NCBI RefSeq assembly: GCF_001589285.1
Contig: NZ_JEMA01001269.1
Location: 1 to 33,265, forward strand
Direction: 5' to 3'
Length of the DNA stretch: 33,265 bases
DNA from: Sorangium cellulosum
GTDB taxonomy: Bacteria; Myxococcota_A; Polyangia; Polyangiales; Polyangiaceae
This document shows, one piece after another, positions 6,038 to 18,448 of this stretch (position 1 is its first letter; each line of letters opens with the position of its first letter). Made by a program: the position numbers and the translations under genes. Below the pieces are notes generated by a model. It searched no databases. It was not told where the DNA came from and saw nothing but the letters and a program-made list of their open reading frames with translations.

Positions 6038-7405
6038 ATGAAGAGCTATCGTTTCGGTGGGTTGGCGTGCATCGTGTTGGGCGCCTTCGGGTGCGGCGCG
6101 GCAGAGCGGCCCGGCGATCCGGAGGCGATGGACGGCGTGAGGCAAGCCCTGCACGACACGACCGCTGTGTTTGCGTACGTCGACATGATGTCGTACGAGC
6201 TCAAGTTCTACGAGCCCAGCCTCGACATGGAGGCGAGCGTGGATCTGCGCACGTTGCCGGGGTACGGCAGCGGTGTTCCGCTGCACGCGTACATCACCGA
6301 AGGCGGCCACAAGGTGTACGTGGGGTTCAACGGTGACGCGAGCAGCCCTACCGGCCTGGCGGTGATCCGCGTCAACGACATCTTCTGGCACGAGCACGCC
6401 GCCGACGTGGAGCTGGTCAAGAAGCTCATCCTCGACGACCCGGCTCACCCGCACGAGTTTCCCGCGGTCACGCAGGTCGACCCGCGGCAACCCTTTCAGC
6501 CGTGGACGGCGCAGCCGTTCACGCAGCTGCACGGGCCCGCCGAGCTGTTCAGCAAGCACCGCTTGTTCTGGACCGTCCTCACCGACGATCGCGTGGTCAC
6601 CGTGAACACGAGCAACGACACCCTGCTGCCGACCCAGGAGTTCGGCGACGCCAGCCGCGCGCTCCACGGCATCAGCTTCAACGCCGCAGAGACGCGCGGC
6701 CTCGGCGCCGGTTACTTCTACGACAGGGGGTACTTGCCTGTCTTCAGTGTACAGGCCGACGGGACGCTCGCGAGCGATGGTGAGATCTGGCTGGGTACCC
6801 CCAAGTCTCACGCCGCCTTCGTGCACAACGTCGAGTGGCAGACGAACCGCTACGCGTTCGTGGGCACCATGCAGTTCGCTCGCACGTCCCTCACCCCGAG
6901 CAGCACGGAGATCCTGGGCCCGAGCGTCTGGTACGTCGACACCAAGGTGAGGATAGCCAAGCGCATCATCAAGCCGACCACGGACGTGAATGGGGCGGGC
7001 ATCTTCCGCTCGGCTTCCTGGGTGGAGGTCGTCGGTGACAAGCTGTTCGTCGGAGAAGAGGACTCACTCGACGACTCCTTCGGAGACGACGGTTACGTGT
7101 CGGTCTTCGACGTCAAGGACCCGTGGCGCCCTCGCTTCATCAAGCGGCTGAAGCCGGGGGTCGAGCTGCCTGCCGACTTCGCGGTGGGGCACGCGCTGGC
7201 CCCGACGCCCGACGGCAAGAGCGTGATCCTCGAGAGCTACCCGTCTGGCTACGTGCTCCGCATCGGCACGGAGAGCCTGCTCGTGGAGCACGTCATCCAC
7301 CACGACACCATGCATTCGATGCCTCACGGCGGCTCGATCGTCGGCATCGAGGAAGGGCACGACTCGGCGGCGCTCAGGACGTCCGCCTTCGGTCTCGACG
7401 AGTAG
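6038..7405 (+). CDS. Lipoprotein, probable beta-propeller of unknown function
   Basis: 455 aa, ATG behind a strong AGGAGG at 6 nt spacing. The signal peptide ends at Cys19 (G-A-F-G-C), a lipobox-like site, so the protein is probably lipid-anchored outside the cytoplasm. The rest has repeated patterns such as G-H-K-V-Y-V-G-F, D-R-V-V-T-V-N-T, G-Y-V-S-V-F-D-V and D-G-K-S-V-I-L-E, which resemble blades of a seven-bladed YncE/amine-dehydrogenase-like propeller. I recognise no specific family. The C-terminal segment V-I-H-H-D-T-M-H-S-M-P-H-G-G has four His and two Met close together and might bind a metal. The gene is bounded by hairpins on both sides (6001-6019, 7417-7452) and is probably its own transcript, although the diiron enzyme gene follows on the same strand. 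Confidence 0.72.
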   Translation: MKSYRFGGLACIVLGAFGCGAAERPGDPEAMDGVRQALHDTTAVFAYVDMMSYELKFYEPSLDMEASVDLRTLPGYGSGVPLHAYITEGGHKVYVGFNGDASSPTGLAVIRVNDIFWHEHAADVELVKKLILDDPAHPHEFPAVTQVDPRQPFQPWTAQPFTQLHGPAELFSKHRLFWTVLTDDRVVTVNTSNDTLLPTQEFGDASRALHGISFNAAETRGLGAGYFYDRGYLPVFSVQADGTLASDGEIWLGTPKSHAAFVHNVEWQTNRYAFVGTMQFARTSLTPSSTEILGPSVWYVDTKVRIAKRIIKPTTDVNGAGIFRSASWVEVVGDKLFVGEEDSLDDSFGDDGYVSVFDVKDPWRPRFIKRLKPGVELPADFAVGHALAPTPDGKSVILESYPSGYVLRIGTESLLVEHVIHHDTMHSMPHGGSIVGIEEGHDSAALRTSAFGLDE

Positions 7406-7485: not shown

Positions 7486-8436
7486 ATGCACCAGACAAAC
7501 GCGATCCTGGCACCCTATAGAAGGCCTCTCTCCGAGTGGGACGCCGCGAGCTGGATCCGCAGCAAGCCGATCCGCAGCGCCAGCTGCGAGGGCTTCGCGT
7601 TCCCGCCCGAGCTGGTCCCGCTGTCGCGCCATCCGCGCTTCGTCGACGACCGCGCGTCGACGGAGAGGCTGCTCGCGTACCGCCTGCTCACTCACCTGCA
7701 GTTCACGACGATGCTGGAGCTCGAGCACGTGAACGCGGTCTGCTCCAGGCTCGCGCGCGACTGCTACGCGCTGGAGCTGAGCCGCGAGCAGAAGAACGAT
7801 GCTCTGCGCATCTACTGCGACGAGGGCGCCCACGCGCTCTTCGTCGAGCTGCTCAGCGTGTCGATCGAGAGCCGTCATGGCGTCGAGCGCGGCGCGCTGC
7901 CCCAGCCTCGCTTCCACGCCGTGCTCGAGCGGATCTTCGAGCGGCACGGCGGCGAGATCGCCCCGGAGATCTTGCACCTGTTCTTCGTGTCCGTCTCGGA
8001 GACCCTGGTCAGCAAGATCCTCCGCGAGATCCCGCGCCACCCGCAGGTCGCGCCGCTCGTCCGCGAGGTGATCGGCGACCACGCGCAGGACGAGGGGACG
8101 CACAGCGTCTACTTTCACTGGCTCTTTCCCCGAGCCTGGAGCCGCCTCGACCGACCGAAACAGGAGCTCGTCGGACGGCTCTTGCCCAGGTTCGTGGACG
8201 CGTTCCTGGCCCCCGATCTGGGCTGCGATGCGCGCGTCCTCGAGGCGCTCTCGTTCGACGAGCCGACGCGGGAGAAGATGCTGGAGGAGACATATCAACC
8301 CGGGCCCGTGCGGAGCGCCGTGCGTTCCGCCGCCCAGCCGACGCTGCGCATGTTCGAGGCGGCTGGCGTGTTCGAGACGGCGGCCGGCGCAGACGCCTTC
8401 GCCGAGTACGACCTTTACCTGGAGAATGCCCAGTGA
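7486..8436 (+). CDS. AurF-like diiron oxygenase (probable N-oxygenase)
   Basis: 316 aa from the ATG at 7486, with AGAGGA 8 nt upstream; the frame is open further upstream but only as a shadow of the previous gene. The helical protein has the ferritin-like diiron ligand set Glu78, Glu113, His116, Glu172, His199, Glu203, His206. The spacing E-x34-E-x2-H-x55-E-x26-H-x3-E-x2-H matches the known set of p-aminobenzoate N-oxygenase AurF (E101, E136, H139, E196, H223, E227, H230) apart from one residue in the middle gap. AurF and CmlI oxidise arylamines to nitroarenes using O2 and external electrons. I infer an amine or hydroxylamine oxidation here, substrate unknown. The stop overlaps the next gene's GTG by 4 nt (GTGA), so the two are translationally coupled. 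The rubredoxin and flavoprotein at 10425-11854 are the likely electron donors. Confidence 0.85.
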   Translation: MHQTNAILAPYRRPLSEWDAASWIRSKPIRSASCEGFAFPPELVPLSRHPRFVDDRASTERLLAYRLLTHLQFTTMLELEHVNAVCSRLARDCYALELSREQKNDALRIYCDEGAHALFVELLSVSIESRHGVERGALPQPRFHAVLERIFERHGGEIAPEILHLFFVSVSETLVSKILREIPRHPQVAPLVREVIGDHAQDEGTHSVYFHWLFPRAWSRLDRPKQELVGRLLPRFVDAFLAPDLGCDARVLEALSFDEPTREKMLEETYQPGPVRSAVRSAAQPTLRMFEAAGVFETAAGADAFAEYDLYLENAQ

Positions 8437-9170
8437 AGACCGCAGTGGTGATCCGTCACGTTCACTTCGAGCACCTCGGCGCTCTCGAGCCGGCGCTGCG
8501 CGAGGCAGGCTATGGTGTCCGGTACCTCGAGGCGCCGACAGCGGCCTTCGAGCTGCACTCGCTGCCCGATCTGCTGGTCGTCCTCGGCGGCCCCATCTCG
8601 GTCAACGATACAGAGGATTACCCGTTCCTGGCGCGCGAGCTATCGCTCGTGCAGCGCCAGATCGAGCAGAAGCTGCCCCTGCTCGGGATTTGCCTGGGAG
8701 CGCAGCTGATCGCGCGTGCTCTCGGAGCTCGGGTCTTCCCGATGCGGGGCAAGGAGGTGGGGTGGTCGCCGCTCGCGCTGACCGAGGCGGGAGCGCGCCA
8801 CGCGATCAGGCACCTGGCAGCGCCGGGGCTCGATGTCCTGCACTGGCACGGCGAGACGTTCGACCTGCCCGCGGGCGCGGCGCGCCTCGCCAGCACGCCG
8901 CTCTGCGAGAACCAGGCGTTCAGCGTGGGCGACCACGCGCTCGGCTTGCAGTTTCACCCGGAGGTCACGGCCGAGCAGCTCGAGAGCTGGTTCGTGGGCC
9001 ACGTCGGCGAGCTGGCCAGCATCCCCGTCCAGGTCACCCGGCTGCGTGGGCAGAGCGCGCCGAGGGCCAAGCGTCTGGAAGAGCCGCTGCGCCGCTTCCT
9101 CAACGAGTGGTTGAGGGCTTCGGAGGAACCACGGGCAAGCGGCGCTTCGGATCTCCGGCGGCTGTCATGA
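8433..9170 (+). CDS. Class I glutamine amidotransferase-like protein
   Basis: 245 aa from the GTG at 8433, which overlaps the stop of the diiron oxygenase gene. The GATase triad is complete: Cys87 in G-I-C-L-G-A-Q, His175 and Glu177 in Q-F-H-P-E. The conserved L-G-G-P-I-S-V-N-D segment and the H-W-H-G-E-T-F motif place it with the stand-alone GuaA-like amidotransferases. Such proteins release ammonia from glutamine for a partner, or hydrolyse gamma-glutamyl amides (as PuuD does). No synthetase partner is encoded here. With an amine oxygenase directly upstream, hydrolysis of a gamma-glutamylated amine or hydroxylamine is a plausible role, but this is inference. Its last 71 bp overlap the end of the convergent MarR gene. 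Confidence 0.85.
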   Translation: MKTAVVIRHVHFEHLGALEPALREAGYGVRYLEAPTAAFELHSLPDLLVVLGGPISVNDTEDYPFLARELSLVQRQIEQKLPLLGICLGAQLIARALGARVFPMRGKEVGWSPLALTEAGARHAIRHLAAPGLDVLHWHGETFDLPAGAARLASTPLCENQAFSVGDHALGLQFHPEVTAEQLESWFVGHVGELASIPVQVTRLRGQSAPRAKRLEEPLRRFLNEWLRASEEPRASGASDLRRLS

Positions 9171-9810
9171 ACCTCGCGCGGTTCTCGGCCTGGAGCTCGG
9201 CGCTGCCGGCCTCATGATCGGCACATTGCGCGCGCAGCTCGGCGTCGCCGATCGCCGCGTCGAGCAGCTGGCAGTGGTGAGGCTTGGGCTCGCCCGGATG
9301 TGCGTTCGCGCGGAAGTTCGTGCAGCTCACGCACATCTGGGCGACCGGGATATACCCGCGCTCTTGCAGCGACGAGATGATGGTGAGCACGCCGCGCAGC
9401 ATGGCGGCCTGATCCTCGTCGGAGAGGTCGTCCACCGCGTCCAGCAGGAACGAGGGCCATTGAGCGACAGCCAGCGCCTCGCTCTCGCCTTGCTTCGTGA
9501 GGGAGATCTTGATGGCTCGTCCATCGCTCAATGCCTGCGTCTTCTTGACCAGCCCCTTGGCCACCAGGGCGCGCACCGTTTCACTCGCGGTGGCGGGCGT
9601 CACGCTGAGCGCCTCGGCGATGTCGAGGAGGCGCAGCCCTTCACCCTTGTGGGTGCGCAGCGTCGTGAGCACCTGTCCCTGCGTCGGGGTGAGGCCTCGA
9701 GCGAACGCTTCGCTCCAGGCCTGCGCCCGCAGCGCGGATCCGAGTCGCTCGAGCCCAGCGATCAACTGGCTGTTCAGGTCCGCAGTGACGAGTTTGCCGC
9801 GACGGGTCAA
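9100..9810 (-). CDS. MarR-family regulator with C-terminal Cys4 cluster
   Basis: 236 aa from the TTG at 9810. No ATG or GTG is available in frame before a stop at about 9846; GAAG lies 5 nt upstream. The winged helix spans about 35-120: L-T-P-T-Q-G-Q-V-L near 40 and the recognition region S-V-T-P-A-T-A-S-E-T-V about 69-79. Unlike ordinary MarR proteins (about 150 aa), it has an extra C-terminal segment with Cys160-x2-Cys163, His178/His179-Cys180 and Cys196, which could bind zinc or an Fe-S cluster and act as a redox or oxygen sensor. It lies between the oxygenase/amidotransferase pair, which it meets tail to tail, and the rubredoxin operon, from which it diverges. It is the likely regulator of both and of itself. 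Confidence 0.85.
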   Translation of the reverse strand: MTRRGKLVTADLNSQLIAGLERLGSALRAQAWSEAFARGLTPTQGQVLTTLRTHKGEGLRLLDIAEALSVTPATASETVRALVAKGLVKKTQALSDGRAIKISLTKQGESEALAVAQWPSFLLDAVDDLSDEDQAAMLRGVLTIISSLQERGYIPVAQMCVSCTNFRANAHPGEPKPHHCQLLDAAIGDAELRAQCADHEAGSAELQAENRARFMTAAGDPKRRLPVVPPKPSTTR

Positions 9811-9815
9811 CGTCG

Positions 9816-9838
9816 CTTCATAGTCGACCAGTTTGAAG
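9816..9838. promoter_or_regulatory. Inverted repeat upstream of the MarR start, candidate operator
   Basis: CTTCA (9816-9820) and TGAAG (9834-9838) are separated by 13 nt that include GTCGAC. A minus-strand TTGACT (9846-9841) lies just beyond, as a possible -35 for the MarR gene. The half-site TTCA/TGAA recurs in the palindrome in the divergent promoter at 10070-10077. The arms are short, so this is a weak autoregulation candidate. Confidence 0.3.
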
Positions 9839-10055
9839 TTTAGTCAAGCGGCCGAGCTTCGCGCGCACGGCCTGGCAACGGCCATGCGTGCACATGTAGG
9901 CCAACATCTCCCTTCGCCTTACATCGATCGTACGGTTCGTCGTACCGAGGCAGAGCGTCGGGGAGGCGCGTCGGGTGATCGATCCGGTCGCCTGAGTCGC
10001 CAATCCCGGAGGATTCCTCAGGTTTGTGAGCACGCACGGGCAACCACTTTTATTA

Positions 10056-10083
10056 TTGACTTTGTTCGTTTCATGAATCTAAT
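10056..10083 (+). promoter_or_regulatory. Promoter of the glutaredoxin-rubredoxin-MOSC operon with built-in palindrome
   Basis: TTGACT (10056-10061), 16 nt, TCTAAT (10078-10083): both hexamers differ from sigma-70 consensus at one position and lie in the most AT-rich stretch of the window. The spacer contains TTCATGAA (10070-10077), a perfect 8-bp palindrome that extends imperfectly to 12 bp (10068-10079) and sits directly against the -10. A repressor bound there would block RNA polymerase, and the MarR protein encoded divergently is the natural candidate. The remaining gap (9847-10055) shows no other gene. Confidence 0.62.
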
Positions 10084-10122
10084 TAGGAGTACTGAGCATC
10101 GCCTCAGCGAAGGAGGAAGGTC

Positions 10123-10356
10123 ATGAGCAAGGCAGTTTTTTTCCATGCAGGGTGCCCGGTTTGCGTCTCCGCCGAACAGAATCTGGCCAACGCCATCGAT
10201 CCGAAGCGCTATCAGATCGAGAGCGTTCACCTCGGTAAGGACAAGTCGCGGCTCGCGGAGGCGCGCGCGGCGGGCGTGAAGTCCGTTCCTGCGCTCGTGC
10301 TCGATGGCTCGGCGTACCACATCAATTTCGGAGCGGCCCTCAGCGACCTCGGCTGA
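10123..10356 (+). CDS. Small glutaredoxin/thioredoxin-fold protein (CPVC)
   Basis: 77 aa, ATG with AAGGAGG about 6 nt upstream. The first strand leads into F-F-H-A-G-C-P-V-C, a CxxC redox centre at Cys11 and Cys14, and a later V-K-S-V-P-A-L provides the cis-proline typical of the thioredoxin fold. The length equals that of minimal glutaredoxins such as NrdH. It probably reduces a disulfide in a partner protein. It is the first gene after the strong promoter at 10056-10083 and is followed by a terminator-like hairpin, so it may be made in larger amounts than the genes after it. No NrdEF genes are nearby, so it is not called NrdH. Confidence 0.8.
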
Positions 10357-10367
10357 GGACTGCACGG

Positions 10368-10394
10368 CCGGCGGGGCGATCTCGTCCCCGCCGG
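10368..10394 (+). terminator. 9-bp perfect hairpin with T-tract between glutaredoxin and rubredoxin genes
   Basis: CCGGCGGGG (10368-10376) pairs with CCCCGCCGG (10386-10394) around a 9-nt loop; TTTT follows at 10403-10406. The short interval between stem and T-run makes it a partial rho-independent terminator or attenuator. It lies in the 68-nt gap inside what otherwise looks like one operon, and could set the ratio between the first gene and the rest. Confidence 0.55.
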
Positions 10395-10424
10395 TCCTCC
10401 CCTTTTCAACGCTGGGAGTCGGTC

Positions 10425-10670
10425 ATGTCGATGACGTCAACCTCTGCCGTTCCGGATGCTCAGGCGCCGATCTCGCGTCGGGCCGGCGTCCGACAGAAAC
10501 GCTGGCGTTGTATCATTTGCGGCTTCGTCTACGACGAGAGGCTCGGCTTGCCTCACGAGGGCATCGCGCCGGGTACGGCGTGGGCTGATATCCCCGAGTC
10601 CTGGACCTGCCCGGATTGCGGAGTCCGCAAGGTGGACTTCTCGATGGTGGCGCTGCTGGAGTCAGGCTGA
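10425..10670 (+). CDS. Rubredoxin
   Basis: 81 aa, ATG with GGGAG 6 nt upstream. After a variable N-terminal extension of about 25 residues there is a complete rubredoxin domain: Cys29-x2-Cys32 ([11 protein letters not shown]) and Cys62-x2-Cys65 (W-T-C-P-D-C-G), which bind one iron, plus the usual G-I-A-P-G-T and W-x-D-I-P. It carries single electrons from a flavoprotein to an oxygenase or a peroxidase-type enzyme. The stop overlaps the start of the reductase gene (TGATG), which supports direct pairing with it. The AurF-like diiron enzyme 2 kb upstream is the best acceptor in the window; this link is inferred. Confidence 0.95.
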
Positions 10671-11854
10671 TGTCCCCGGCCGCCCCTGACGGCGTGGTGA
10701 TCGTCGGCGCAGGTCTCGCCGGCTATTCGGCGGCGCGCGCGCTCCGCTCGCTGGCCCCGGAGCTGTCCATCACGATCGTGACCGCGGACGACGGCGACTT
10801 CTATAGCAAGCCCACGCTGTCGGTCTCGGCCAGCCAGCGCGCCGGCGCGCCGGATCTGGTCCTGCGCAGCGCCGAGCAGATGAGGAAAGAGCTGGGTTGT
10901 CGCCTCATCACCCGCACGCGGGTGCACAGCCTGGATTGCGGCAAGCGCGTCCTCGTCGCCGGGGACGAGGCCATGCCGTATTCGAAGCTCGTGCTCGCGA
11001 TCGGAGCCGTGCCGTGGACGCCGCCGGTGCCTGGGCTGGCGAGCAGCTCGAGCGTGCTGAGCGTCAATCACCTGGACGACTACCGTCGGCTCATTCAGCG
11101 GCTCTCCCGGAGCACGCGTGTCGCCATCCTGGGCGCCGGCTTCGTTGGCTGTGAGCTCGCCAACGATCTACAGCGGGGCGGACACGCCGTGACGTTGATC
11201 GACCGCGCGTCGGAGCCGCTGCCGAACCTGGTGTCGCCGCAGCTCGGGAAGAGGCTACGCGCGAGGCTGGAAGAGGCGGGGATCGTCTGCCGCTTCGGCG
11301 TGTCTCCCCTCAGCGTCGAGCCGCTCGGCGACGGCGTGTGGGTCGAGCTCGACGGTGAGCGTCCGCTCGCGGCCGACCTGGTGATCTGTGCCACCGGTCT
11401 GCGCGCCGGCGAGCTCGCGGAGAGCGCCGGGCTGAAGACGCAGCGGGGCGTGGTCGTCGACCGCTCGCTCCGCACGAGCGATGAGCATGTCTACGCGCTG
11501 GGCGACTGCGCCAGCCTCGCGCCGTACAACCTTCAATTCGTCGCGCCGATCCCGCACGCTGCCGCCGCGCTGGCGCGCTCGCTGCTCGGCGCGAGCGTCT
11601 CGCTGACGCTGCCGCCACTGGCGATCAGCGTCAAGACGCCGTGCTTCCCTGTTGTCAGCTCGGCCGGTCCGCGCGAGGCTGGGTTGACGTGGGAGGTCTC
11701 CGCGGACACCGAGGGCACGACGGAGCTGGCCTTCGACGCGGCCGGAGCGCTGCGGGCGTTCGCGCTGGGCGGCAGTCACGTGAAGGCCCGCGGCGAGTAT
11801 CTCAGCAGGTTGCCGCCGCTCCTGGGGGCGGCGGCCTCGGAGGGAGCGTCATGA
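10670..11854 (+). CDS. FAD-dependent NAD(P)H:rubredoxin reductase-like oxidoreductase
   Basis: 394 aa from the ATG at 10670, overlapping the rubredoxin stop by 1 nt. It is a Pyr_redox_2 protein: FAD-binding G-A-G-L-A-G near residue 13, NAD(P)-binding G-A-G-F-V-G near 155, an A-T-G element and the second FAD motif Y-A-L-G-D-C-A-S near 280. Domain order and size agree with rubredoxin reductases and NorW-type flavorubredoxin reductases. The likely role is hydride transfer from NAD(P)H to FAD and single-electron reduction of the adjacent rubredoxin. The stop overlaps the next gene by 4 nt (ATGA). Whether NADH or NADPH is used cannot be told. Confidence 0.88.
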   Translation: MSPAAPDGVVIVGAGLAGYSAARALRSLAPELSITIVTADDGDFYSKPTLSVSASQRAGAPDLVLRSAEQMRKELGCRLITRTRVHSLDCGKRVLVAGDEAMPYSKLVLAIGAVPWTPPVPGLASSSSVLSVNHLDDYRRLIQRLSRSTRVAILGAGFVGCELANDLQRGGHAVTLIDRASEPLPNLVSPQLGKRLRARLEEAGIVCRFGVSPLSVEPLGDGVWVELDGERPLAADLVICATGLRAGELAESAGLKTQRGVVVDRSLRTSDEHVYALGDCASLAPYNLQFVAPIPHAAAALARSLLGASVSLTLPPLAISVKTPCFPVVSSAGPREAGLTWEVSADTEGTTELAFDAAGALRAFALGGSHVKARGEYLSRLPPLLGAAASEGAS

Positions 11855-12396
11855 CTCGATTGGCCGAGTGGAGTGTGAGCCGTTGGTTCAACAGCCGCGA
11901 ACCCCTGACCCTGGCGGGGCTCCGCGGGAAGGTCGTGCTGATCCACGCCTTTCAGATGCTATGCCCGGGCTGCGTGGTGAAGGCCACTCCGCAAGCGCAG
12001 CGGGTGTTCGAGATATTCCGTGGCTCCAGGCTCCAGGTAGTCGGCCTGCACACCGTCTTCGAGCACCACGCGGCGATGAACGAGGGGGCGCTGGAAGCGT
12101 TCATTCACGAGTTCAAGGTGACCTTCCCGGTAGGCGTGGACCGACCGGGACGGGGCAGTCTTCCCGAGACGATGGAGCGTTACGCGCTGCGTGGCACTCC
12201 CAGCACGCTGCTGGTCGACGCCGAAGGGAACCTCCGGCGTCATCTGTTCGGCATCCACGACGACTTGTTGCTCGGGGCCGAGATCGGGGGCCTGCTCGCC
12301 GAGGCCGAGGTCGGGGCGTCCAGCGCGGCCACGGCCGGCGTCGCTCAGGGGAGCTGCGCGGTCGGCGACGGCTGCCGTCCGATCGTGGGCGAGTGA
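11851..12396 (+). CDS. Thioredoxin-fold (TlpA/AhpC-like) protein with CPGC centre
   Basis: 181 aa, translationally coupled to the flavoprotein (ATGA overlap). Residues about 15-150 form a redoxin domain: L-R-G-K-V-V-L-I-H-A-F-Q then C-P-G-C at 38-41, and the cis-proline segment G-T-P-S-T-L-L-V near 112. There is no signal peptide, so it is cytoplasmic, unlike classical TlpA. A second pair of cysteines stands in the last 15 residues (G-S-C-A-V-G-D-G-C), possibly an internal resolving pair or a metal site. It may be a thiol reductase or peroxidase serving the same pathway. Confidence 0.82.
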   Translation: MTRLAEWSVSRWFNSREPLTLAGLRGKVVLIHAFQMLCPGCVVKATPQAQRVFEIFRGSRLQVVGLHTVFEHHAAMNEGALEAFIHEFKVTFPVGVDRPGRGSLPETMERYALRGTPSTLLVDAEGNLRRHLFGIHDDLLLGAEIGGLLAEAEVGASSAATAGVAQGSCAVGDGCRPIVGE

Positions 12397-12402
12397 TCTC
12401 CC

Positions 12403-13101
12403 ATGTCGCAGGTCTATCCGCTCCACGGGCTCCTCGTCGGCAAGAAGGTCCCGCTAGGCCCTTCGGGCCAGCTCAGCGCGATCGCGAAGTCGCTTGTCTT
12501 CGAGCCGCTTCGATTGAGCGAGCGAGGGCTGGAGGGCGACGAGCAGGGCGACATGGTGCGCCACGGCGGCGTGGAGAAGGCGCTGCACCACGTTCCACTG
12601 CAGCACTACGGCTGCTGGGAGCAGCGGCTCGGCCTTCCCGCCAAGAGCCTCGCGGCGGGGGCGTTCGGCGAGAATATCTCCACGCGCGGCCTCGACGAAA
12701 GCAGCGTGTGCGTCGGTGACACATGGACGCTCGGCAGCGCGGTGATCCAGGTCTCGCAGGGGCGCCAGCCTTGCTGGAAGCTGAATCTCCGCTTCTCTCG
12801 GGCCGACATGGCTCGCTTGCTGCAAGAGAGCGGGTGGAGCGGCTGGTACTACCGGGTGCTCCAGCCGGGCGTCGTCGCGCCGCAGGACGAGCTCAAGCTC
12901 CTGCACCGCCCGCAGCCGGGCTGGCCCATCGCGAGGCTGTTGCGGGCCCTGCACCGCGACGGGCTGAACCACGCAGAGCTCGAGCGCATGGAGGCGCTGC
13001 CGGAGCTGGCGCCCTCATGGCGCGCCATCGCTCGTCGTCGCCTGGAGCTCGGCGCGGTCGAGGACTTCGCTCCGCGCTTGACGACGCCGAGCGGGCTCTA
13101 A
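12403..13101 (+). CDS. MOSC-domain protein, YiiM type
   Basis: 232 aa, ATG 6 nt after the previous stop, last gene of the operon. The MOSC domain covers about 10-165: G-D-M-V-R-H-G-G near 49-56, G-A-F-G-E-N-I at 86-92, V-G-D-T-W near 104, and the molybdenum-ligand cysteine in R-Q-P-C-W-K-L (Cys124). The C-terminal tail is the 3-alpha bundle of YiiM. E. coli YiiM and the related mARC/YcbX enzymes reduce N-hydroxylated compounds such as 6-hydroxylaminopurine. Its occurrence with an AurF-type N-oxygenase is striking: one could make, the other remove, an N-O bond. The stop overlaps the convergent HTTM gene by 4 nt. Confidence 0.88.
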   Translation: MSQVYPLHGLLVGKKVPLGPSGQLSAIAKSLVFEPLRLSERGLEGDEQGDMVRHGGVEKALHHVPLQHYGCWEQRLGLPAKSLAAGAFGENISTRGLDESSVCVGDTWTLGSAVIQVSQGRQPCWKLNLRFSRADMARLLQESGWSGWYYRVLQPGVVAPQDELKLLHRPQPGWPIARLLRALHRDGLNHAELERMEALPELAPSWRAIARRRLELGAVEDFAPRLTTPSGL

Positions 13102-15296
13102 TTCCCCGCGCTCTCTTCCTTCCGCACCGGCGGCAGCGCCGGCATCCCGGCCCGCGGCCGATACCCCGGCTTCCGGTACGACAGGATCGGGATCGCCTCG
13201 TTCTTGTACGGCGCGACCTCCCCCGGCCTCGGGCACTGGTCCCGCACCCAGTAGACGTCGAACGCGAGGATCTCGTCCTCCTGCCGCCCGGTGCGCTCAT
13301 GATACCTGAGCAGGTAGTCCTGGAGCCCGGGCCTGCGAAACGCCTTGTTCCGGTCGAGCCGGATCCGGTTGAAATAGTCCTGCCGGATCTGCCCGAGCCC
13401 GAGCCCCCGCGCGTCGGTGAGATCGAGATCCGGCGGCTGCCCCGTGAACGGGTCCACGTGGCGCCCGTCGATGGTGATCGCGTCGACGGTGATCGACCCG
13501 TCCTCGGTGATCGGGTTCGGGGCGAACATCCCCCACCCCTGGAGGAGGCGCGGATAGACGATCGTCGCCTGCACGAACTTCGGCTGGGTGTGCTTGAGGA
13601 TCGCGGGCACGCTCTTGTTCTCGTTGATCGCCTGGCTCACCGCGCACAGCCCGAGGTACGCGACGAGCGCCTCCCGCGCGATCACCCGCCCGCGGGCGAG
13701 CTTCTCCGAGAGCGGCGACGGGCTCTCCGCCACCTCCCCCGCCCTCGCGCGCGCCCGCCGCGTCAGCCCGAAGAACCGGGCGATCGCGTCGCGCCGCCGC
13801 GACGCGATCCCGAGCAGCGCGCCGGGCGCGCCGAGCGTCAGCGCCCAGAGGAGCGGCCGCGCGAAGCGGCCCCCCGGGAGCGCCTGCAGGATCTCGCGCA
13901 GCGCCCCGGCGCCCTGGAACACCCGGCCATCCGACGGATCGCGCACGACGAAGAGCTCCGGCCGTGGCTCCCCTCCCCCGGCCTCCTCCGCCGCCCCGGC
14001 CGCCTCGCCGCGCGCCTCCTCGAACCGGAGCAGCTCGAGGCCGTCGAGCCGGACGAGGAAGCGCATGAGGGCGAACGCGAGGGGCGAGCTGCCGTCATAG
14101 ACGACGACCCGGGGCGCCGCGCGGCGTCGGTACCACCGCTCGAGCGCGTCCCAGTGCTGCGCCGTCGGGAGCAGGAACGACCAGCCGATCATGAACCACG
14201 AGAAAGGGCCGAGGCGCATCATCACCCCGAACGAGCCGTGCAGGGCCCACATCCCGCCCATGGCGAGCGCGCGCGTGAAGCGGCGGCCATAGGGCGAGAG
14301 GATCCACGGCACGAGCATCGCCTCGAGCATGAGGACTCCCCAGGTCATCCCCTTCTTCGCCCAGAAGGGGATGTACTCCCGCGCGACGACAGCGAGCCCC
14401 GTCACCATGCGGTCGAGGTGCAGCACGTAGTGCACCGTGTCGCCGCGGCGCCAGATCTGGCCTGATTTGTTGACGACGTTGAAATAGTAGATGGTCGCCA
14501 GGTTCAGGATCGCGAGGAGCACGATCCCCGAGACGTACGGCTGGGTCGCCCACGCGGGGCGGCTCCGGTCCGCGAGGTCGGCGGCCGTGCGCTCCTTCCG
14601 CTCGCGGTACGAGCGGACAAGGGCGTCCACGGAGAAGCGCCTGCCGGTCGGCATGAACATGGCCCAGCAGGTGATGAGGTTCACGACGACATAGCCGCCG
14701 TTCTCGATCATGACGATCCGGTTGTCCCTGCTCGTCACGAGGACAAAGGAGAGGATCGAGAACAGCCGCGTATGCCAGCCGATGAAGAAGCAGAAGAAGC
14801 AGAAGAGCGAGAGCGCGAACGCGACGTGGACCTCTCCGATCGACGAGAACGCGTGATAGAGGCTGAAGTTGAATCCGCTGCTCGGGTGGAAGAGGTGATA
14901 GTGGTTGGTGAGCACCCCGTCGTTGCTGTAGATCCAGCGCGCCTCGGCCCAGTGGCGCAGGCAGTCGCTCACCAGCAGAAAGCCGAGCACGAGCCGGAAC
15001 AGCCCGAGCGTGCGGACGTCGATGGTGCAGTAATGATCCCGGATCCAGCGCCCCAGGCGCCGTGAGCGGCTCTCGGCCGGCGGCCTCGGGGCTGCGGCCC
15101 TGGGCGGCGCGGGCGCGCTCCCCTCGGGCGCGCCCTCTCCGCCCGGCGCGCTCCCCTCGGGCGCGCCCTCTCCGCCCGACGCGTCGTCTGCACGCGCCGC
15201 GCTCTCCTCGGGCGCGCCCGCGTCCTCTCCACCCGGCGCGCCCTCCTCCGGCGCGCCGGCAGCCGCGGCGCTCGGGTCCTCGTCAGCCGCACGCAT
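13098..15296 (-). CDS. HTTM-domain membrane protein with degenerate DCC-like region (paralogue 1)
   Basis: 732 aa. A disordered N-terminus of about 78 residues rich in Gly, Glu, Ala, Pro includes a duplicated 11-residue unit (see the repeat at 15113-15178). Then comes an HTTM domain, the membrane module shared with vitamin K-dependent gamma-carboxylase, with about eight hydrophobic helices between residues 95 and 385; characteristic pieces are T-L-G-L-F-R, Y-S-N-D-G-V-L and Y-H-A-F-S-S. Around residue 400 the segment V-V-Y-D-G-S-S-P-L-A aligns with the DCC-like motif of the neighbouring paralogue but lacks both cysteines. A soluble C-terminal domain (about 555-720) contains W-G-M-F-A-P-N-P. 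It starts 9 nt after the stop of the paralogue. Function unknown. Confidence 0.85.
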   Translation of the reverse strand: MRAADEDPSAAAAGAPEEGAPGGEDAGAPEESAARADDASGGEGAPEGSAPGGEGAPEGSAPAPPRAAAPRPPAESRSRRLGRWIRDHYCTIDVRTLGLFRLVLGFLLVSDCLRHWAEARWIYSNDGVLTNHYHLFHPSSGFNFSLYHAFSSIGEVHVAFALSLFCFFCFFIGWHTRLFSILSFVLVTSRDNRIVMIENGGYVVVNLITCWAMFMPTGRRFSVDALVRSYRERKERTAADLADRSRPAWATQPYVSGIVLLAILNLATIYYFNVVNKSGQIWRRGDTVHYVLHLDRMVTGLAVVAREYIPFWAKKGMTWGVLMLEAMLVPWILSPYGRRFTRALAMGGMWALHGSFGVMMRLGPFSWFMIGWSFLLPTAQHWDALERWYRRRAAPRVVVYDGSSPLAFALMRFLVRLDGLELLRFEEARGEAAGAAEEAGGGEPRPELFVVRDPSDGRVFQGAGALREILQALPGGRFARPLLWALTLGAPGALLGIASRRRDAIARFFGLTRRARARAGEVAESPSPLSEKLARGRVIAREALVAYLGLCAVSQAINENKSVPAILKHTQPKFVQATIVYPRLLQGWGMFAPNPITEDGSITVDAITIDGRHVDPFTGQPPDLDLTDARGLGLGQIRQDYFNRIRLDRNKAFRRPGLQDYLLRYHERTGRQEDEILAFDVYWVRDQCPRPGEVAPYKNEAIPILSYRKPGYRPRAGMPALPPVRKEESAGN
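15113..15178. repeat. Perfect 33-bp tandem duplication inside the HTTM gene
   Basis: Two identical 33-bp copies (15113-15145 and 15146-15178) encode two copies of an 11-residue Gly/Glu/Ala/Pro/Ser unit in the N-terminal linker. A diverged third copy follows. As 33 is a multiple of three, the frame is kept. Perfect identity suggests recent slippage. Confidence 0.85.
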
Positions 15297-15305
15297 GCGA
15301 GCGCC

Positions 15306-17351
15306 TCAGTTCGGTTTGTTCGGTCGAAGGAGGCCTGGCGAGAGGGGCGGGACGCGGTCGCCGAGCCTCCCCGCGCCGCCGCGCGAGTGCGAGAACAGCT
15401 TCACCCGCTCGACGCCGCTCGGCGCAGGCTCGCCCGGCGCGGGGATCGGCGCGGAGACCCAGTACGCGTCGAAGCCCGAGAGCGACATCTCGCGCCCCCC
15501 CTCCTCCGCGAGCGGCCCGCCCTTCGCGAGGTAGTCGCGGAACGCCCGCTGGAAATCGCTCCACTCCGGCCGCCGGATGCGGTCGAGGTAGTCGGACCAG
15601 AGCTGGCCGAGCCTCGTCGCGGGCTGCCCCGCGGGCTGGAGCCGGGGCTCCTCCCCGGTCAGCGGATCGATCGGCTGCGACGCGCGCGTCTGGCCGTCGA
15701 TCACCAGCAGCTCGTTGCTCCGCGGCGGCTCCGGCGCCATCACGTCCCACCGCGCCAGCATGCGCGGCCACGACGCCACGCCCGCGAGCACCGCCCCCTG
15801 CGGGATGGCGCCCGCCCCGGGCAGCGGGTTCTCCTTCGCCGTCTGCGCGAGCATCGCGGCGAGCACCACGAGCACCGCCACCTCTCGCAGCGACCCCAGC
15901 GCGAGCCGCGCCGCCCGCACCGCGGCCGCGGGCCGGTCCGGCGCGGCCCCCTCGTCGTCGCCGTCCGCGTGGCTCTCGTCGAACAGCGGGATCCCGCACG
16001 CCTGCTTGCCGAGCACCATGCTGATGTGGTGCCGGCGGGTCGCGACCACCTCGTAGAGCACGTCGAGCACGTGCGAGATCCCGGGCAGCTTGAGCGGCAA
16101 CGCCAGCCAGCCGAACGGCAGCGCGAGCAGCCCCTCGGTCACCGCGCCCCCCTTCCGGTAGACGCGCCCGTTCCTGTCGATCGCCAGCACCGTCTGCTCG
16201 ACCAGCTCCGCCGTGACCTCCTTCGGCATCGGCACGCGCTCCGTCGCGCCGGTCTGGTTGCGCACGTAGAGCTCGTCGAGCGCGCCGTTGCCCTGGAAGG
16301 CCACGTGCCCGCGCAGGTCGAGCCGCTTGATCAGCCGGCACAGCGTGAGACAGAGCCCGCAGTCGGCGTCGTACACGAGCGTCCGCGCCCGCCCCTCGTT
16401 CCAGGAGCGCTCGTACACGTCCCACAGCTCACCCGACAGCACGAGCGGCGCCGCCGCGGCGAGCGCCCACCCGAACAGCCCGAAATCGAAGAAGATCCCG
16501 AGGACGAGGCCGTGCACCACCATCAGCGCGGCGGCGAGCCCGCGCGTCCAGCGGAAGGCCGCGGGGACGAAGAGGAGCGCCGGGATCGCGAGCTGCATCG
16601 CCCAGGTCCCGTACGTGAGGCCGCGCAGGGTGCCGAGCGGCACGGCGTCGCGGAGCCAGGCGCCCGCGTCGCTCGCCCAGCGATCGACGTGGAGCGCATA
16701 GTAGAACGCCGAGCCGTCGCGCCACGCCGCGCCGCGCTGCTGGAGCGCCGTGCACAGGTAGATGAGCGCGAGCTGCAGCAGCACGGCCAGCGCGGCGAGC
16801 GAGGTCGGCGACCAGCCGGGCAGGCGCTCGGCCGCGATCTCGGAGTCCGCGGCCCTCGACCTGTCGTTCAGCTCGGTGTCGCGCTTCTCGTCCCGGAGCG
16901 CCAGCGAGGCGCGCAGGCTGTCGAGCGAGAAGCGGCCCCCGCACGGCAGGAAGGCGGTGAACGCGAGGATCGCGATCGCCGCGTAGTTGCCGGCGTTCTC
17001 GAGCAGGATGTTCCTCGACGTCAGGCTCACGAGCACCACGAGCGCCAGGACGTGGAACACGCGCGTCCGGTAGCCGATGAGGAACAGGGCGTAGACGAGG
17101 AGCGCGAGCGCGAAGGCGAAGTGGGCCTCTCCCACCGTCGAGAAGGCGTGGAACAGGCTGAAGACCTGCTGCTTGCCGCGGAGGTTGAAGAGGTGGTTGT
17201 GGTTCGGGAGGACGCCCTCGTTCGAGTAGAAGTCCCGCACCCATCGCCACCGCGCGAAGAGGTCGGCGATAAGGACGAGCCCGAAGGTGATACGAAAAAG
17301 CCCGAGCGAACGGGCGTCGATCCGCAAGAAGTGATCGCGAAGTGATTTCAC
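15306..17351 (-). CDS. HTTM-domain membrane protein with CxxC DCC-like domain (paralogue 2)
   Basis: 681 aa from the GTG at 17351, which overlaps the TGA of tryptophan dioxygenase by 4 nt; the frame is open upstream but only as a shadow of that gene. The HTTM membrane domain (about 5-300) matches paralogue 1 throughout (S-L-G-L-F-R, Y-S-N-E-G-V-L, H-A-F-S-T-V-G-E). Residues about 326-460 form a DCC-like thiol-disulfide oxidoreductase domain starting Y-D-A-D-C-G-L-C with Cys331 and Cys334. The C-terminal domain (about 540-665) contains M-A-P-E-P-P. HTTM proteins are related to gamma-carboxylase, but their bacterial function is mostly unknown; the CxxC suggests redox coupling at the membrane. 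The coupling to tryptophan dioxygenase is unexplained. Confidence 0.87.
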   Translation of the reverse strand: MKSLRDHFLRIDARSLGLFRITFGLVLIADLFARWRWVRDFYSNEGVLPNHNHLFNLRGKQQVFSLFHAFSTVGEAHFAFALALLVYALFLIGYRTRVFHVLALVVLVSLTSRNILLENAGNYAAIAILAFTAFLPCGGRFSLDSLRASLALRDEKRDTELNDRSRAADSEIAAERLPGWSPTSLAALAVLLQLALIYLCTALQQRGAAWRDGSAFYYALHVDRWASDAGAWLRDAVPLGTLRGLTYGTWAMQLAIPALLFVPAAFRWTRGLAAALMVVHGLVLGIFFDFGLFGWALAAAAPLVLSGELWDVYERSWNEGRARTLVYDADCGLCLTLCRLIKRLDLRGHVAFQGNGALDELYVRNQTGATERVPMPKEVTAELVEQTVLAIDRNGRVYRKGGAVTEGLLALPFGWLALPLKLPGISHVLDVLYEVVATRRHHISMVLGKQACGIPLFDESHADGDDEGAAPDRPAAAVRAARLALGSLREVAVLVVLAAMLAQTAKENPLPGAGAIPQGAVLAGVASWPRMLARWDVMAPEPPRSNELLVIDGQTRASQPIDPLTGEEPRLQPAGQPATRLGQLWSDYLDRIRRPEWSDFQRAFRDYLAKGGPLAEEGGREMSLSGFDAYWVSAPIPAPGEPAPSGVERVKLFSHSRGGAGRLGDRVPPLSPGLLRPNKPN

Positions 17352-18448
17352 GGAGAGTCCTCGACCCGGAATCCGTAGTCCGATGCGTGCTCGAGCGCGG
17401 GGACGCTCGGCTGGCGCAGGAGCAGGGAGCGCACTGTCCAGAGATCGCCGAACACGCGGTAGCGCAGCGCGGTCTGGTCGAGGTAATCGACGCCCGCGGA
17501 GCCGCCGGTGCCCGTGCGGCGGCCGATCACCCGCTCGACCATCCGCGCGTGGCGCTGCCGCCAGATGAGCATGGCCTGCTCCATCTCCAGGATGCGGTCG
17601 AGCACCTCGCGCGGCCACGCGAGCCTGGGCAGCTCGCGGTAGCTCTCGATGAAGACGATCGCCGCGCGGATCGCCCGGCGCTTCTCGCGCGTGGGCCCGT
17701 CGGCGTCGGGGTCGTCCTCGGCGAGGAGGAACGCCTCGGCGTTCGCGTTATCCGCCTCGTAGCGCGCGCGGAGCCGCTCGACGTCCGCCGGGGTGAGCGC
17801 CTTGCCGATCGCGATCTGCACCCGGCGCTCGTTCTCCTCGCGCATCGAGCGCATGTAGTTGCGCAGGAAGCCCAGGACCGCGCCCGGATCGCTCGACCCG
17901 TCGATCGGCGTCCGCGAGAGCCACTCGTAGAGGTAGTGCTTGAGGCTCGGCCCGCTCGCGAGCCGCGCCTCGAGCCGCCGCGTCGCCGACGACGGCGAGC
18001 CGTCCGCTGTCTTGAGCGCCTCCTTGTAGCTCCCCTCGCGGCCGAGCGGGATCCGCGCCGCGTCGTCGAGGCCGAGGAGGACCTCGATCTCGCGGAGCTG
18101 CGCCGACTGGAAGCCGCTCGCGGGGATCAGGCGATCCCGAAAATCGAGGTAATCACGGGTGGTTAGCGTCTCCATCACCCGGAAGTGCTGGATCGCCTGC
18201 TCGAAGATGGTGACGACCCGCCGGAACGAGCGCGCGGCCGAGGCGAGCTTCTGATCGGGCACGGGGTTCTGGCGGAAGAGCTCGCGCGCCGAGGTGAGCT
18301 CGCGGAGGATGAGCTTGAACCAGAGCTCGTAGATCTGGTGGACGACGATGAACAGGGCCTCGTCGTTGCCGACCTTCTGCTCGTCGTCGTCGAACCCGCC
18401 CTGGAGCGCGAGCAGCTCCTCGACGTGGATGTAATCCCAGTAGTTCAT
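17348..18448 (-). CDS. kynA: Tryptophan 2,3-dioxygenase
   Basis: 366 aa, ATG at 18448. Haem enzyme that opens the indole ring of L-tryptophan with O2 to give N-formylkynurenine, the first step of the kynurenine pathway. Diagnostic segments: H-Q-I-Y-E-L-W-F-K with active-site His37, F-R-D-R-L-I-P-A-S-G-F-Q-S about 103-115 with the substrate-binding Arg, the proximal haem ligand His300 in R-Q-R-H-A-R-M-V, and G-T-G-G-S-A-G at 313-319. It is longer than the roughly 280-aa bacterial enzymes, mainly through an insert about 135-255 between the two halves. No kynurenine formamidase or kynureninase is nearby. It forms an operon with the two HTTM genes downstream. No clear ribosome site is seen at the start. 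Confidence 0.93.
   Translation of the reverse strand: MNYWDYIHVEELLALQGGFDDDEQKVGNDEALFIVVHQIYELWFKLILRELTSARELFRQNPVPDQKLASAARSFRRVVTIFEQAIQHFRVMETLTTRDYLDFRDRLIPASGFQSAQLREIEVLLGLDDAARIPLGREGSYKEALKTADGSPSSATRRLEARLASGPSLKHYLYEWLSRTPIDGSSDPGAVLGFLRNYMRSMREENERRVQIAIGKALTPADVERLRARYEADNANAEAFLLAEDDPDADGPTREKRRAIRAAIVFIESYRELPRLAWPREVLDRILEMEQAMLIWRQRHARMVERVIGRRTGTGGSAGVDYLDQTALRYRVFGDLWTVRSLLLRQPSVPALEHASDYGFRVEDSP

Follow-up and report, generated by a model that had tools for sequence, protein, structure and literature searches.

The question raised by this locus, located in a 33,265-nucleotide stretch of the Sorangium cellulosum genome (the window), is whether the redox genes gathered around a diiron protein of the AurF family form a single unit, and what chemistry this unit might perform. 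An earlier note on this DNA had counted seven genes, although its own list contains eight proteins; the cluster itself stands, with eight genes being recovered by Pfam and NCBIfam. These genes encode the AurF-family diiron protein, a glutamine amidotransferase (GATase), a MarR regulator with four cysteines in its tail (Cys4 MarR), a thioredoxin (Trx)-like protein, a rubredoxin, a rubredoxin reductase, a redoxin, and a YiiM protein. This eight-gene module is real, and is confirmed here. The reading preferred for its function, which is put forward tentatively, is that the module may be a Dnf-like hydroxylamine-forming unit situated beside a cassette for redox or nitrosative stress, in which both the glutamine substrate and the direction of the reaction (the making, rather than the removal, of hydroxylamine) are what we infer.

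Gene content and arrangement

The genes of the diiron protein (7486–8436, + strand) and the GATase (8433–9170, + strand) overlap at the stop codon of the former, and this unit is convergent with the MarR gene (9100–9810, − strand; start codon uncertain). Beyond the MarR gene, all on the + strand, are the genes of the small thioredoxin/glutaredoxin-like CxxC protein (10123–10356), the rubredoxin (10425–10670), a NorW-like NAD(P)H:rubredoxin reductase (10670–11854), the redoxin (11851–12396), and the YiiM-type MOSC molybdoenzyme (12403–13101), of which the last four can be regarded as one operon because the genes overlap or almost touch.

A further gene, directly 5' of the diiron gene (6038–7405, + strand) and outside the region covered by the earlier note, encodes a protein of no assigned function, with no match in either Pfam or NCBIfam. 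This gene is probably a member of the module, given that a homologue (34% identity over 402 amino acids, E 1e-77) is found directly 5' of the diiron gene in another cluster, L132, whose upstream gene has no match in plasmids. Read by eye, the sequence of the product is beta-propeller-like.

The L132 cluster is also the best match to the module as a whole, with six genes in common in addition to the upstream gene. The earlier note had proposed counting how often the complete set recurs; all eight genes occur together in no other locus examined. No account of this gene arrangement was found in the open-access PMC literature. The upstream gene had escaped the earlier note, as had the stress cassette, the operator-like site, and the resemblance to the Dirammox and TsnB systems.

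The diiron protein and its amidotransferase partner

The description of the diiron protein as AurF-like holds, given its match to PF11583 (E 2.8e-28; 99.3 bits, in comparison with a curated cut-off of 29.6) and a structure model (pLDDT 90, pTM 0.88) with the fold of the arylamine N-oxygenases. In a Foldseek search, this model recovered nine PDB matches at E < 0.001, solely CmlI and AurF, with an E value of 2e-7 for CmlI. The predicted diiron ligands, four glutamates and three histidines (E78, E113, H116, E172, H199, E203, and H206), form an EEHEHEH set that is retained in all 28 aligned diiron proteins. The protein is, then, a predicted N-oxygenase of the AurF fold, which shares its fold and ligands with AurF and CmlI, but diverges from them in sequence, with 16–18% identity in the structural alignments and 18 bits in the AurF model NF045603, far below the cut-off of 620.

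In the phylogeny, the protein adjoins the amide oxygenase SaAmOx/TsnB7, as the sister of SaAmOx (WP_313772112, 38% identity) at a fork supported by 96/95, from which SaAmOx extends along a long end branch (1.08). An arylamine, as suggested in the earlier note, is for this reason no longer the best guess at the substrate. The protein falls outside the branch containing the dnf-type proteins of clusters L133 and L134 (100/100), at a point where long branches meet, with these two proteins representing the DnfA branch in place of Alcaligenes DnfA. Ordinary AurF/CmlI antibiotic chemistry was dropped as the first choice due to the placement with SaAmOx/TsnB7 and to the fact that, as previously claimed, none of the usual biosynthetic genes was recognised in the window.

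The nearest characterised diiron relative thus belongs to the TsnB6/7/9 (trichostatin A) and SaAmOx-AS/SaAmOx/SaHAT (benzohydroxamic acid) systems. According to PMC13418202, SaAmOx and its accessory subunit make glutamyl hydroxamate in E. coli, and, by homology to SaAmOx/TsnB7 with this subunit, the diiron enzyme of the module would hydroxylate glutamine at its side-chain amide, with gamma-glutamyl hydroxamate as the product. The module differs from these systems in that its partner enzyme is a class I GATase, rather than an AsnB-like hydroxyamidotransferase, and in that no acceptor biosynthesis was recognised; a BLAST search for a TsnB6-type accessory subunit, made against the compared module proteins, gave no match at E < 0.01. 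It is highly improbable that the diiron/GATase pair makes a hydroxamate or N-oxygenated secondary metabolite, with the neighbouring genes providing self-protection. While relatives of the AurF family adjoin AsnB-like, PabAB, PKS/NRPS, or AMP-binding genes in Streptomyces, Burkholderia, and Rhodococcus, a reading of the 33 kb by eye, with searches for the families of a few genes, revealed no recognisable assembly-line, ligase, or tailoring gene.

The coupling of the diiron gene to a glutamine amidotransferase, also proposed previously, is borne out by the overlap of the genes, the match to NF005458/PRK07053 (307 bits, cut-off 250), and the recurrence of the pairing. Residues C87, H175, and E177 are invariant in all eight aligned GATase sequences, and the protein shares 48% identity with its counterpart in the dnf-type cluster L133 and 50% with PDB entry 9xfs, which is named only “Glutamine amidotransferase”. 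A two-sequence diiron alignment, used to scan genomes, returned zero relatives, and relatives were found instead by a DNA pattern scan, in which all 12 of the closest relatives have a same-strand GATase gene 18–705 bases 3' of their diiron gene. The GATase is also 3' of the diiron gene on a Nostoc plasmid, and this copy and the 12 relatives are all cyanobacterial. The scan also gave 34 relatives that are more distant, 25 of them with at least 1 kb of downstream sequence, and near these 34 there was no GATase match. The same type of GATase accompanies another lineage of diiron proteins, that of the dnf-type clusters L133 and L134. The idea that the GATase marks the module specifically was rejected, since 15 of the 18 genomes with a strong match in a GATase-centred survey have none of the profiled genes nearby, so that most members of the family in this survey are not tied to the module. 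In the GATase tree, which has poor resolution, the window sequence does not group with its cyanobacterial counterparts.

The system that most directly invites comparison is DnfABC (Dirammox) of Alcaligenes, which comprises a diiron hydroxylamine oxidase (DnfA), an FNR/2Fe-2S reductase (DnfB), and a GATase (DnfC). DnfC is reported, in a statement of PMC11160463 made on the authority of other work, to hydrolyse glutamyl hydroxamate, and the GATase of the module would, by homology, release glutamate and hydroxylamine from gamma-glutamyl hydroxamate; the idea of a gamma-glutamyl compound as the amidotransferase link, found in the earlier note, comes close to this DnfABC/TsnB literature. Compared through the L133 and L134 sequences, used in place of those of Alcaligenes, the module shares with DnfABC an adjacent GATase of the same family and an AurF-family diiron protein, whose seven ligands are all shifted by 10 relative to the positions printed for DnfA in PMC9478400. 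It differs in that the diiron protein belongs to another branch (21–23% identity to the L133/L134 proteins over ~100 residues), and in that a rubredoxin and its reductase are present instead of DnfB, for which a profile built from the L134 protein had no match in the window. In addition, the gene list of the window, read by eye, showed no dnf PLP-enzyme or MocR-like genes, and the module adds YiiM, Trx, redoxin, and the Cys4 MarR. A point against the glutamine route is the statement, in PMC11440038, that there is no direct evidence of the oxidation of glutamine by DnfA, which does not bind this amino acid.

In its most specific form, which is possible rather than probable, the preferred reading would posit a second, separately assembled glutamine-to-hydroxylamine route in the cyanobacteria and this genome. 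Here, a TsnB7-like amide oxygenase, and not DnfA, would be joined to a DnfC-type hydroxamate hydrolase, driven in this genome by rubredoxin, beside a new four-cysteine MarR and with YiiM as a built-in N-hydroxy reductase. If this is true, the formation of hydroxylamine from glutamine extends beyond the Alcaligenes-type Dnf, having arisen with two or more diiron lineages and having reached the cyanobacteria.

The rubredoxin chain and the YiiM protein

The transfer of electrons from NAD(P)H through a flavoprotein and a rubredoxin to the diiron centre, suggested in the earlier note, is backed by clusters L132 and L158, in which the rubredoxin (Rd) gene lies directly beside the diiron gene, in the order diiron-Rd-GATase-YiiM-MarR in L132 and GATase-SHMT-like-diiron-Rd-reductase in L158. 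The rubredoxin matches PF00301 (E 1.9e-21). The reductase contains the Pyr_redox_2 (PF07992) and Rbx_binding (PF18113) domains, as found in NorW (NADH:flavorubredoxin reductase) and other rubredoxin reductases, but its score in the NorW model (310 bits) is below the cut-off of 392, and no flavorubredoxin or alkane hydroxylase was recognised nearby. Because these two other clusters pair a rubredoxin with the diiron gene and this type of GATase, the rubredoxin and its reductase would substitute for DnfB, and the order of the genes in this module, L132, and L158 is consistent with a flow from NADH to the flavoprotein, the rubredoxin, and the diiron enzyme. If true, this would supply an enzyme of the AurF family with a defined electron chain based on rubredoxin. 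Rubredoxin was absent from the stretches examined around the diiron gene at all 13 cyanobacterial loci, where the search for partners covered the GATase and a profile panel.

The YiiM protein matches the MOSC (PF03473, E 8.6e-36) and YiiM_3-alpha (PF03475) domains, with 167 bits in model NF008577, below the cut-off of 294. Its C124, invariant in eight of eight sequences, corresponds by spacing to C120 of E. coli YiiM, as given in PMC5818509. It is a predicted molybdoenzyme and N-reductase, with the domains and MOSC cysteine of the YiiM/YcbX/mARC enzymes, which may reduce stray N-hydroxy compounds; a MoaA-type gene is present in the host genome. Unlike these enzymes, it shares an operon with a rubredoxin and a rubredoxin reductase, whereas mARC uses cytochrome b5.

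This arrangement invites the rather improbable alternative of two independent neighbours, in which the rubredoxin and its reductase feed YiiM, as a bacterial mARC-like N-reductase, and the diiron/GATase pair is an unrelated insertion. The tight packing of the operon, the position of the MarR gene between it and the diiron unit, and an operator-like site found only before the operon all fit this arrangement, as do the electron partner of E. coli YiiM, stated in 2018 as not identified (PMC5818509), and the supply of mARC by a flavoprotein and a small carrier (PMC10637980). The idea of a rubredoxin serving YiiM alone is, however, lowered by the counts, with rubredoxin in none of the 14 loci that have YiiM without a diiron gene, versus three of the 28 diiron loci scanned, and a diiron gene in all three rubredoxin-bearing loci. 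In L158, moreover, rubredoxin accompanies the diiron gene with no YiiM seen within its 15 kb, and the diiron gene occurs together with the MarR/YiiM set in Nostoc and L132 as well. If the preferred reading is true, YiiM would gain a testable electron partner.

The Cys4 MarR and the stress cassette

The MarR regulator (PF01047, E 2.8e-11) has a C-terminal tail with the spacing C-x2-C-x16-C-x15-C, the four cysteines of which are kept in all 29 members examined, the window's included; its single-sequence structure model (pLDDT 56) is too poor to judge the Cys site. The operator-like palindrome TTAGGAGTACTGA (10083–10095), with two mismatches relative to TWAGGASTCCTWA, lies 27 bases 5' of the Trx-like start codon, and when the intergenic region (312 bases) was put through 4000 dinucleotide shuffles, 32 of these contained an equally good site. 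As a site with up to two mismatches precedes the Trx operon alone, the diiron unit may not share this control.

At least one of the Trx, redoxin, YiiM, GATase, and secreted protein families is present in 26 of the 28 MarR-centred loci, whereas 20 control segments taken from those genomes contained none of these five recurring partners, and the association exceeds chance. The Trx-like family, represented here by a GCPVC protein (Thioredoxin_3, 26.3 bits, barely above the cut-off of 24.8), is present in 14 of the 28 loci, and the redoxin family in 11, one of them weak; the redoxin of the module (AhpC/TSA, TlpA-like, with an LCPGC motif) scores 25.4 bits as AhpC/TSA-like, slightly below the cut-off of 26. 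The MarR, Trx, redoxin, YiiM, and often the GATase make up a stress cassette that recurs, and that carries an operator-like palindrome. The Cys4 MarR would bind the palindrome between its own gene and the Trx operon, and let go when the four-cysteine site, which we infer to hold a metal, is attacked by the presumed signal (NO, peroxide, or an N-oxide), while the Trx-like protein and the redoxin would deal with thiol damage. If true, this would define a new group of candidate redox/NO-sensing MarR regulators with a candidate operator.

The same regulator bears on the possibility, considered unlikely, that the module serves detoxification, and not production, with the diiron enzyme oxidising hydroxylamine to N2 in the manner of DnfA, the GATase clearing gamma-glutamyl hydroxamate formed in a side reaction, YiiM reducing other N-hydroxy compounds, and the MarR answering nitrosative stress. 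Genes related to NO or hydroxylamine do occur near several Cys4 MarR loci, including those of flavohaemoglobin (L106, L132), a globin (L020), cytochrome P460 (L107), NnrS with a truncated haemoglobin (L024), and Rrf2 regulators (L023, L024, L106, L110), and the GATase is present without a diiron gene in seven of the 28 MarR-centred loci. DnfA turns hydroxylamine into N2 in vitro (PMC9478400), but this formation of N2 in Alcaligenes has been argued to be partly abiotic (PMC11440038), and a hydroxamate is what the closest diiron relative of characterised function makes, with the dnf-type proteins in the other branch. A reading by eye of the genes listed for the window revealed no such NO gene, the flavohaemoglobin profile had no match there, and neither MOSC nor MarR is mentioned in the main text of the NO-network paper PMC1274295.

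The Cys4 MarR was rejected as a companion of the diiron pairs in cyanobacteria, with weak matches at most in the 12 pattern-scan genomes, where the best profile match has an E of 6e-13, two genomes have none, and the matches end before the tail. Among the cyanobacterial diiron carriers, the full Cys4 MarR match is restricted to the Nostoc plasmid (E 1e-104).

Gene arrangement and host genome

The gene cluster that the earlier note placed at 7486-13101 was borne out, with all eight genes confirmed there, and its MarR gene (9100-9810, minus strand), encoding a regulator with a four-cysteine C-terminal tail (Cys4 MarR), is flanked by two units. On the left, the AurF-family diiron gene (7486-8436, plus strand) overlaps at its end the start of the glutamine amidotransferase (GATase) gene (8433-9170, plus strand); the GATase gene in turn overlaps the MarR gene at the latter's 3' end. 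On the right, the genes for a Trx-like protein, rubredoxin, rubredoxin reductase, redoxin, and YiiM (10123-13101, plus strand) are read as a single operon, because they overlap (rubredoxin/rubredoxin reductase and rubredoxin reductase/redoxin) or nearly touch, with six bases between redoxin and YiiM. Searches of the open-access PMC literature turned up no account of such an arrangement.

The source draft genome (G000) comprises 11.9 Mb in 1269 contigs, and is listed with 7.94% contamination. The diiron gene is present in one of the 116 genomes of the class, the single positive being the window's own genome, and at E 0.001, matches were recovered in 4/282 genomes of the phylum, the three others being far weaker. 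Given the contamination, the number of contigs, and this class-wide rarity, the assignment of the contig and the host lineage need checking. Downstream, a tandem pair of large proteins (13098-17618) has HTTM-like regions below the cut-off and DCC1-like regions above it in the second protein only, while 17348-18448 encodes a tryptophan 2,3-dioxygenase (PF03301).

The diiron protein and its GATase partner

The membership of the diiron protein in the AurF-type family is secure, and all seven ligands are present, offset by exactly 10 residues from those given for DnfA in PMC9478400 (E88, E123, H126, E182, H209, E213, and H216). A structure model built from 22 sequences (pLDDT 90) has CmlI and AurF as its sole PDB matches below E 0.001, so the protein falls outside the non-oxygenase ferritin-like proteins, a grouping that the earlier note had named among its refuting outcomes. 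In a midpoint-rooted tree of 28 proteins, from which AurF and CmlI themselves were left out, the protein clusters with cyanobacterial proteins (support 100/100), the sister of the resulting group being the glutamine amide oxygenase SaAmOx of Streptomyces angustmyceticus (96/95). The other branch (100/100) unites the dnf-type proteins (L133 and L134) with the proteins of L132 and Tistrella, one of Rhodococcus, and two that are PabAB-linked. Long branches are a caveat on this tree, both single ones (SaAmOx 1.08, PKS_L131 4.07) and those that meet between its two halves.

The expression of SaAmOx with its accessory subunit SaAmOx-AS in Escherichia coli yields glutamyl hydroxamate, as stated in PMC13418202, where the printed SaAmOx accession, WP313772112, is the match in locus L025. 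No TsnB6-like accessory subunit was found among the module proteins. It is very improbable that the module makes a secondary metabolite.

When genome contigs were scanned with a DNA pattern encoding I-Y-C-D-E-[GA]-x-H-A, 51 stretches were recovered, 46 of which match the diiron protein (tblastn). The 12 relatives above 44% identity are all cyanobacterial, and each has a same-strand GATase gene 18-705 bases downstream; no GATase match was found in the 34 relatives below 39% identity, at least 1 kb of downstream sequence being available for 25 of these only. A plasmid of Nostoc sp. C057 provides a 13th pair, together with a Cys4 MarR, Trx-like protein, MOSC, thiol peroxidase, and globin. The cyanobacterial gene is rare (2/292 genomes at E 1e-40, both already in the pattern scan and one being the centre of the genome set), and no rubredoxin occurs at any cyanobacterial diiron locus within the stretches covered.

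The GATase is not specific to the module, since 15 of the 18 Pseudomonadota genomes with strong matches (of 200 searched) have no module or dnf-type genes nearby, these being present in the other three. The GATase tree is poorly resolved, and the diiron-linked GATases fall into more than one group as drawn, a single origin being compatible with the well-supported branches. On a Variovorax plasmid (L162:5291-6690), the gene for the GATase overlaps that for YiiM and the stretch covered has no diiron match, which suggests that the two can work together without the diiron protein.

Comparison with Dnf and the place of the rubredoxin

The DnfABC system of Alcaligenes is annotated as a diiron oxygenase, an NADH-dependent FNR/2Fe-2S reductase, and a glutamine amidotransferase (PMC9478400). 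In PMC11160463, PMC11440038, and PMC12575085, the proposed route runs from glutamine to glutamyl hydroxamate (DnfAB), hydroxylamine (DnfC), and N2 (DnfA). The first step is disputed, with DnfA reported to lack glutamine binding and direct evidence to be wanting (PMC11440038), and a share of the N2 may arise abiotically (PMC11440038 and PMC12575085). The DnfABC system as defined was rejected for the window, because two of the features tested, the DnfA branch and the DnfB reductase, fail. The module may nevertheless work like DnfABC, and the production of hydroxylamine is quite possible, if tentative.

A search of 379 genomes from the family of a Burkholderiales genome returned five AurF-family matches. 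The diiron-reductase-GATase order of L133 and L134 leads us to infer dnf clusters. In L134, a Fer2 domain is present in the reductase, and by eye one of the genes upstream is SHMT-like. For L132, the order is upstream gene-diiron-rubredoxin-GATase-YiiM-Cys4 MarR-flavohaemoglobin, with DUF2024, redoxin, and secreted-protein genes close by; its MarR reaches just 56 bits against the profile, yet has the four tail cysteines, and the product of its upstream gene is 34% identical to that of 6038-7405 (plus strand), which immediately precedes the diiron gene in the window. On plasmid pTM3 of Tistrella mobilis (L158), the order is GATase-SHMT-like-diiron-rubredoxin-flavoprotein reductase. The rubredoxin thus adjoins the diiron gene at the place of DnfB in two clusters, both of which have the GATase as well, and as their diiron proteins (58% identity) belong to one lineage, this amounts to one independent case plus the window. 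In the profile panel, in which several stretches are short and absences apply to the sequence covered, rubredoxin was found in 3/28 diiron loci and in none of the 14 loci with YiiM but no diiron gene.

The complete gene set grouped by the earlier note did not recur, all eight genes being together in the window only and in no other locus examined; the closest is L132, with six of the eight and the upstream gene. It is rather improbable that two unrelated units simply lie side by side.

The Cys4 MarR group, its neighbours, and a candidate operator

Two samples of Cys4 MarR genes were compiled, one of 13 of the 74 matching plasmid records, picked for variety, and one of all 15 matches that 398 Pseudomonadota genomes gave at E 1e-25. 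The four tail cysteines are kept in all 28 proteins and in that of the window, and the following histidine in 22/29. Nearby genes encode the Trx-like protein (14/28), redoxin (11, one weak), the secreted protein (11), YiiM (9), GATase (8), DUF2024 (5), and the diiron protein (1), with rubredoxin at none of the 28 loci. The first five are all missing from two loci, L022 and L107. At least one of these five occurs at 15/15 survey loci vs. 0/20 control segments taken from those genomes, where the single MarR match was weak (Fisher p 3e-10, a value that overstates independence, as some of the loci are near relatives). Genes related to NO lie near several Cys4 MarR loci, a setting in which the removal of hydroxylamine, as detoxification, may be considered, although this appears somewhat unlikely; the production of hydroxylamine is the tentatively favoured reading.

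The palindrome TWAGGASTCCTWA or ATAGGANTCCTAT was found upstream of many Cys4 MarR genes. With up to three mismatches, it lies near the MarR start in 12/29 loci vs. 21/4000 random control windows, a partly circular comparison, given that the motif was derived from the same loci. With up to two, the 30 MarR loci contain 21 sites and the controls none, but equally good sites are present in 9/12 AT-rich cyanobacterial diiron loci. A different palindrome is common to L119-L122 and L124, five loci that belong to a divergent subgroup. The window's single site with up to two mismatches, TTAGGAGTACTGA (10083-10095), lies ahead of the Trx operon, and one as good arose in 32/4000 shuffles of the intergenic region; over the whole window, the three sites with up to three mismatches are at chance level (13/100 shuffles had as many). 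Neither the diiron gene nor the gene upstream of it is preceded by such a site.

The group, with its candidate palindromic operator and recurring Trx/redoxin/YiiM/GATase/secreted-protein neighbourhood, occurs on records of the Cyanobacteriota, Pseudomonadota, Deinococcota, and Bacteroidota (L020-L024, L103-L125), and no published account of it was found in the open-access PMC literature. The predicted secreted protein (~240 aa) lies beside the Cys4 MarR in L104, L110, L112, L116, L118, L122-L124, L132, and others, and that of L110 has no Pfam match. In six loci (L119-L124), small ROF-like (Rho modulator) proteins are encoded in the vicinity of the Trx-like gene, and a short protein near the Trx gene of the Nostoc plasmid (L020:6252-6374), with no Pfam match, is ROF-like by eye. 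On plasmid pXAUT01 of Xanthobacter Py2 (L164), YiiM is close to a globin, an Rrf2 regulator, and DUF488, which is again an NO-type setting.
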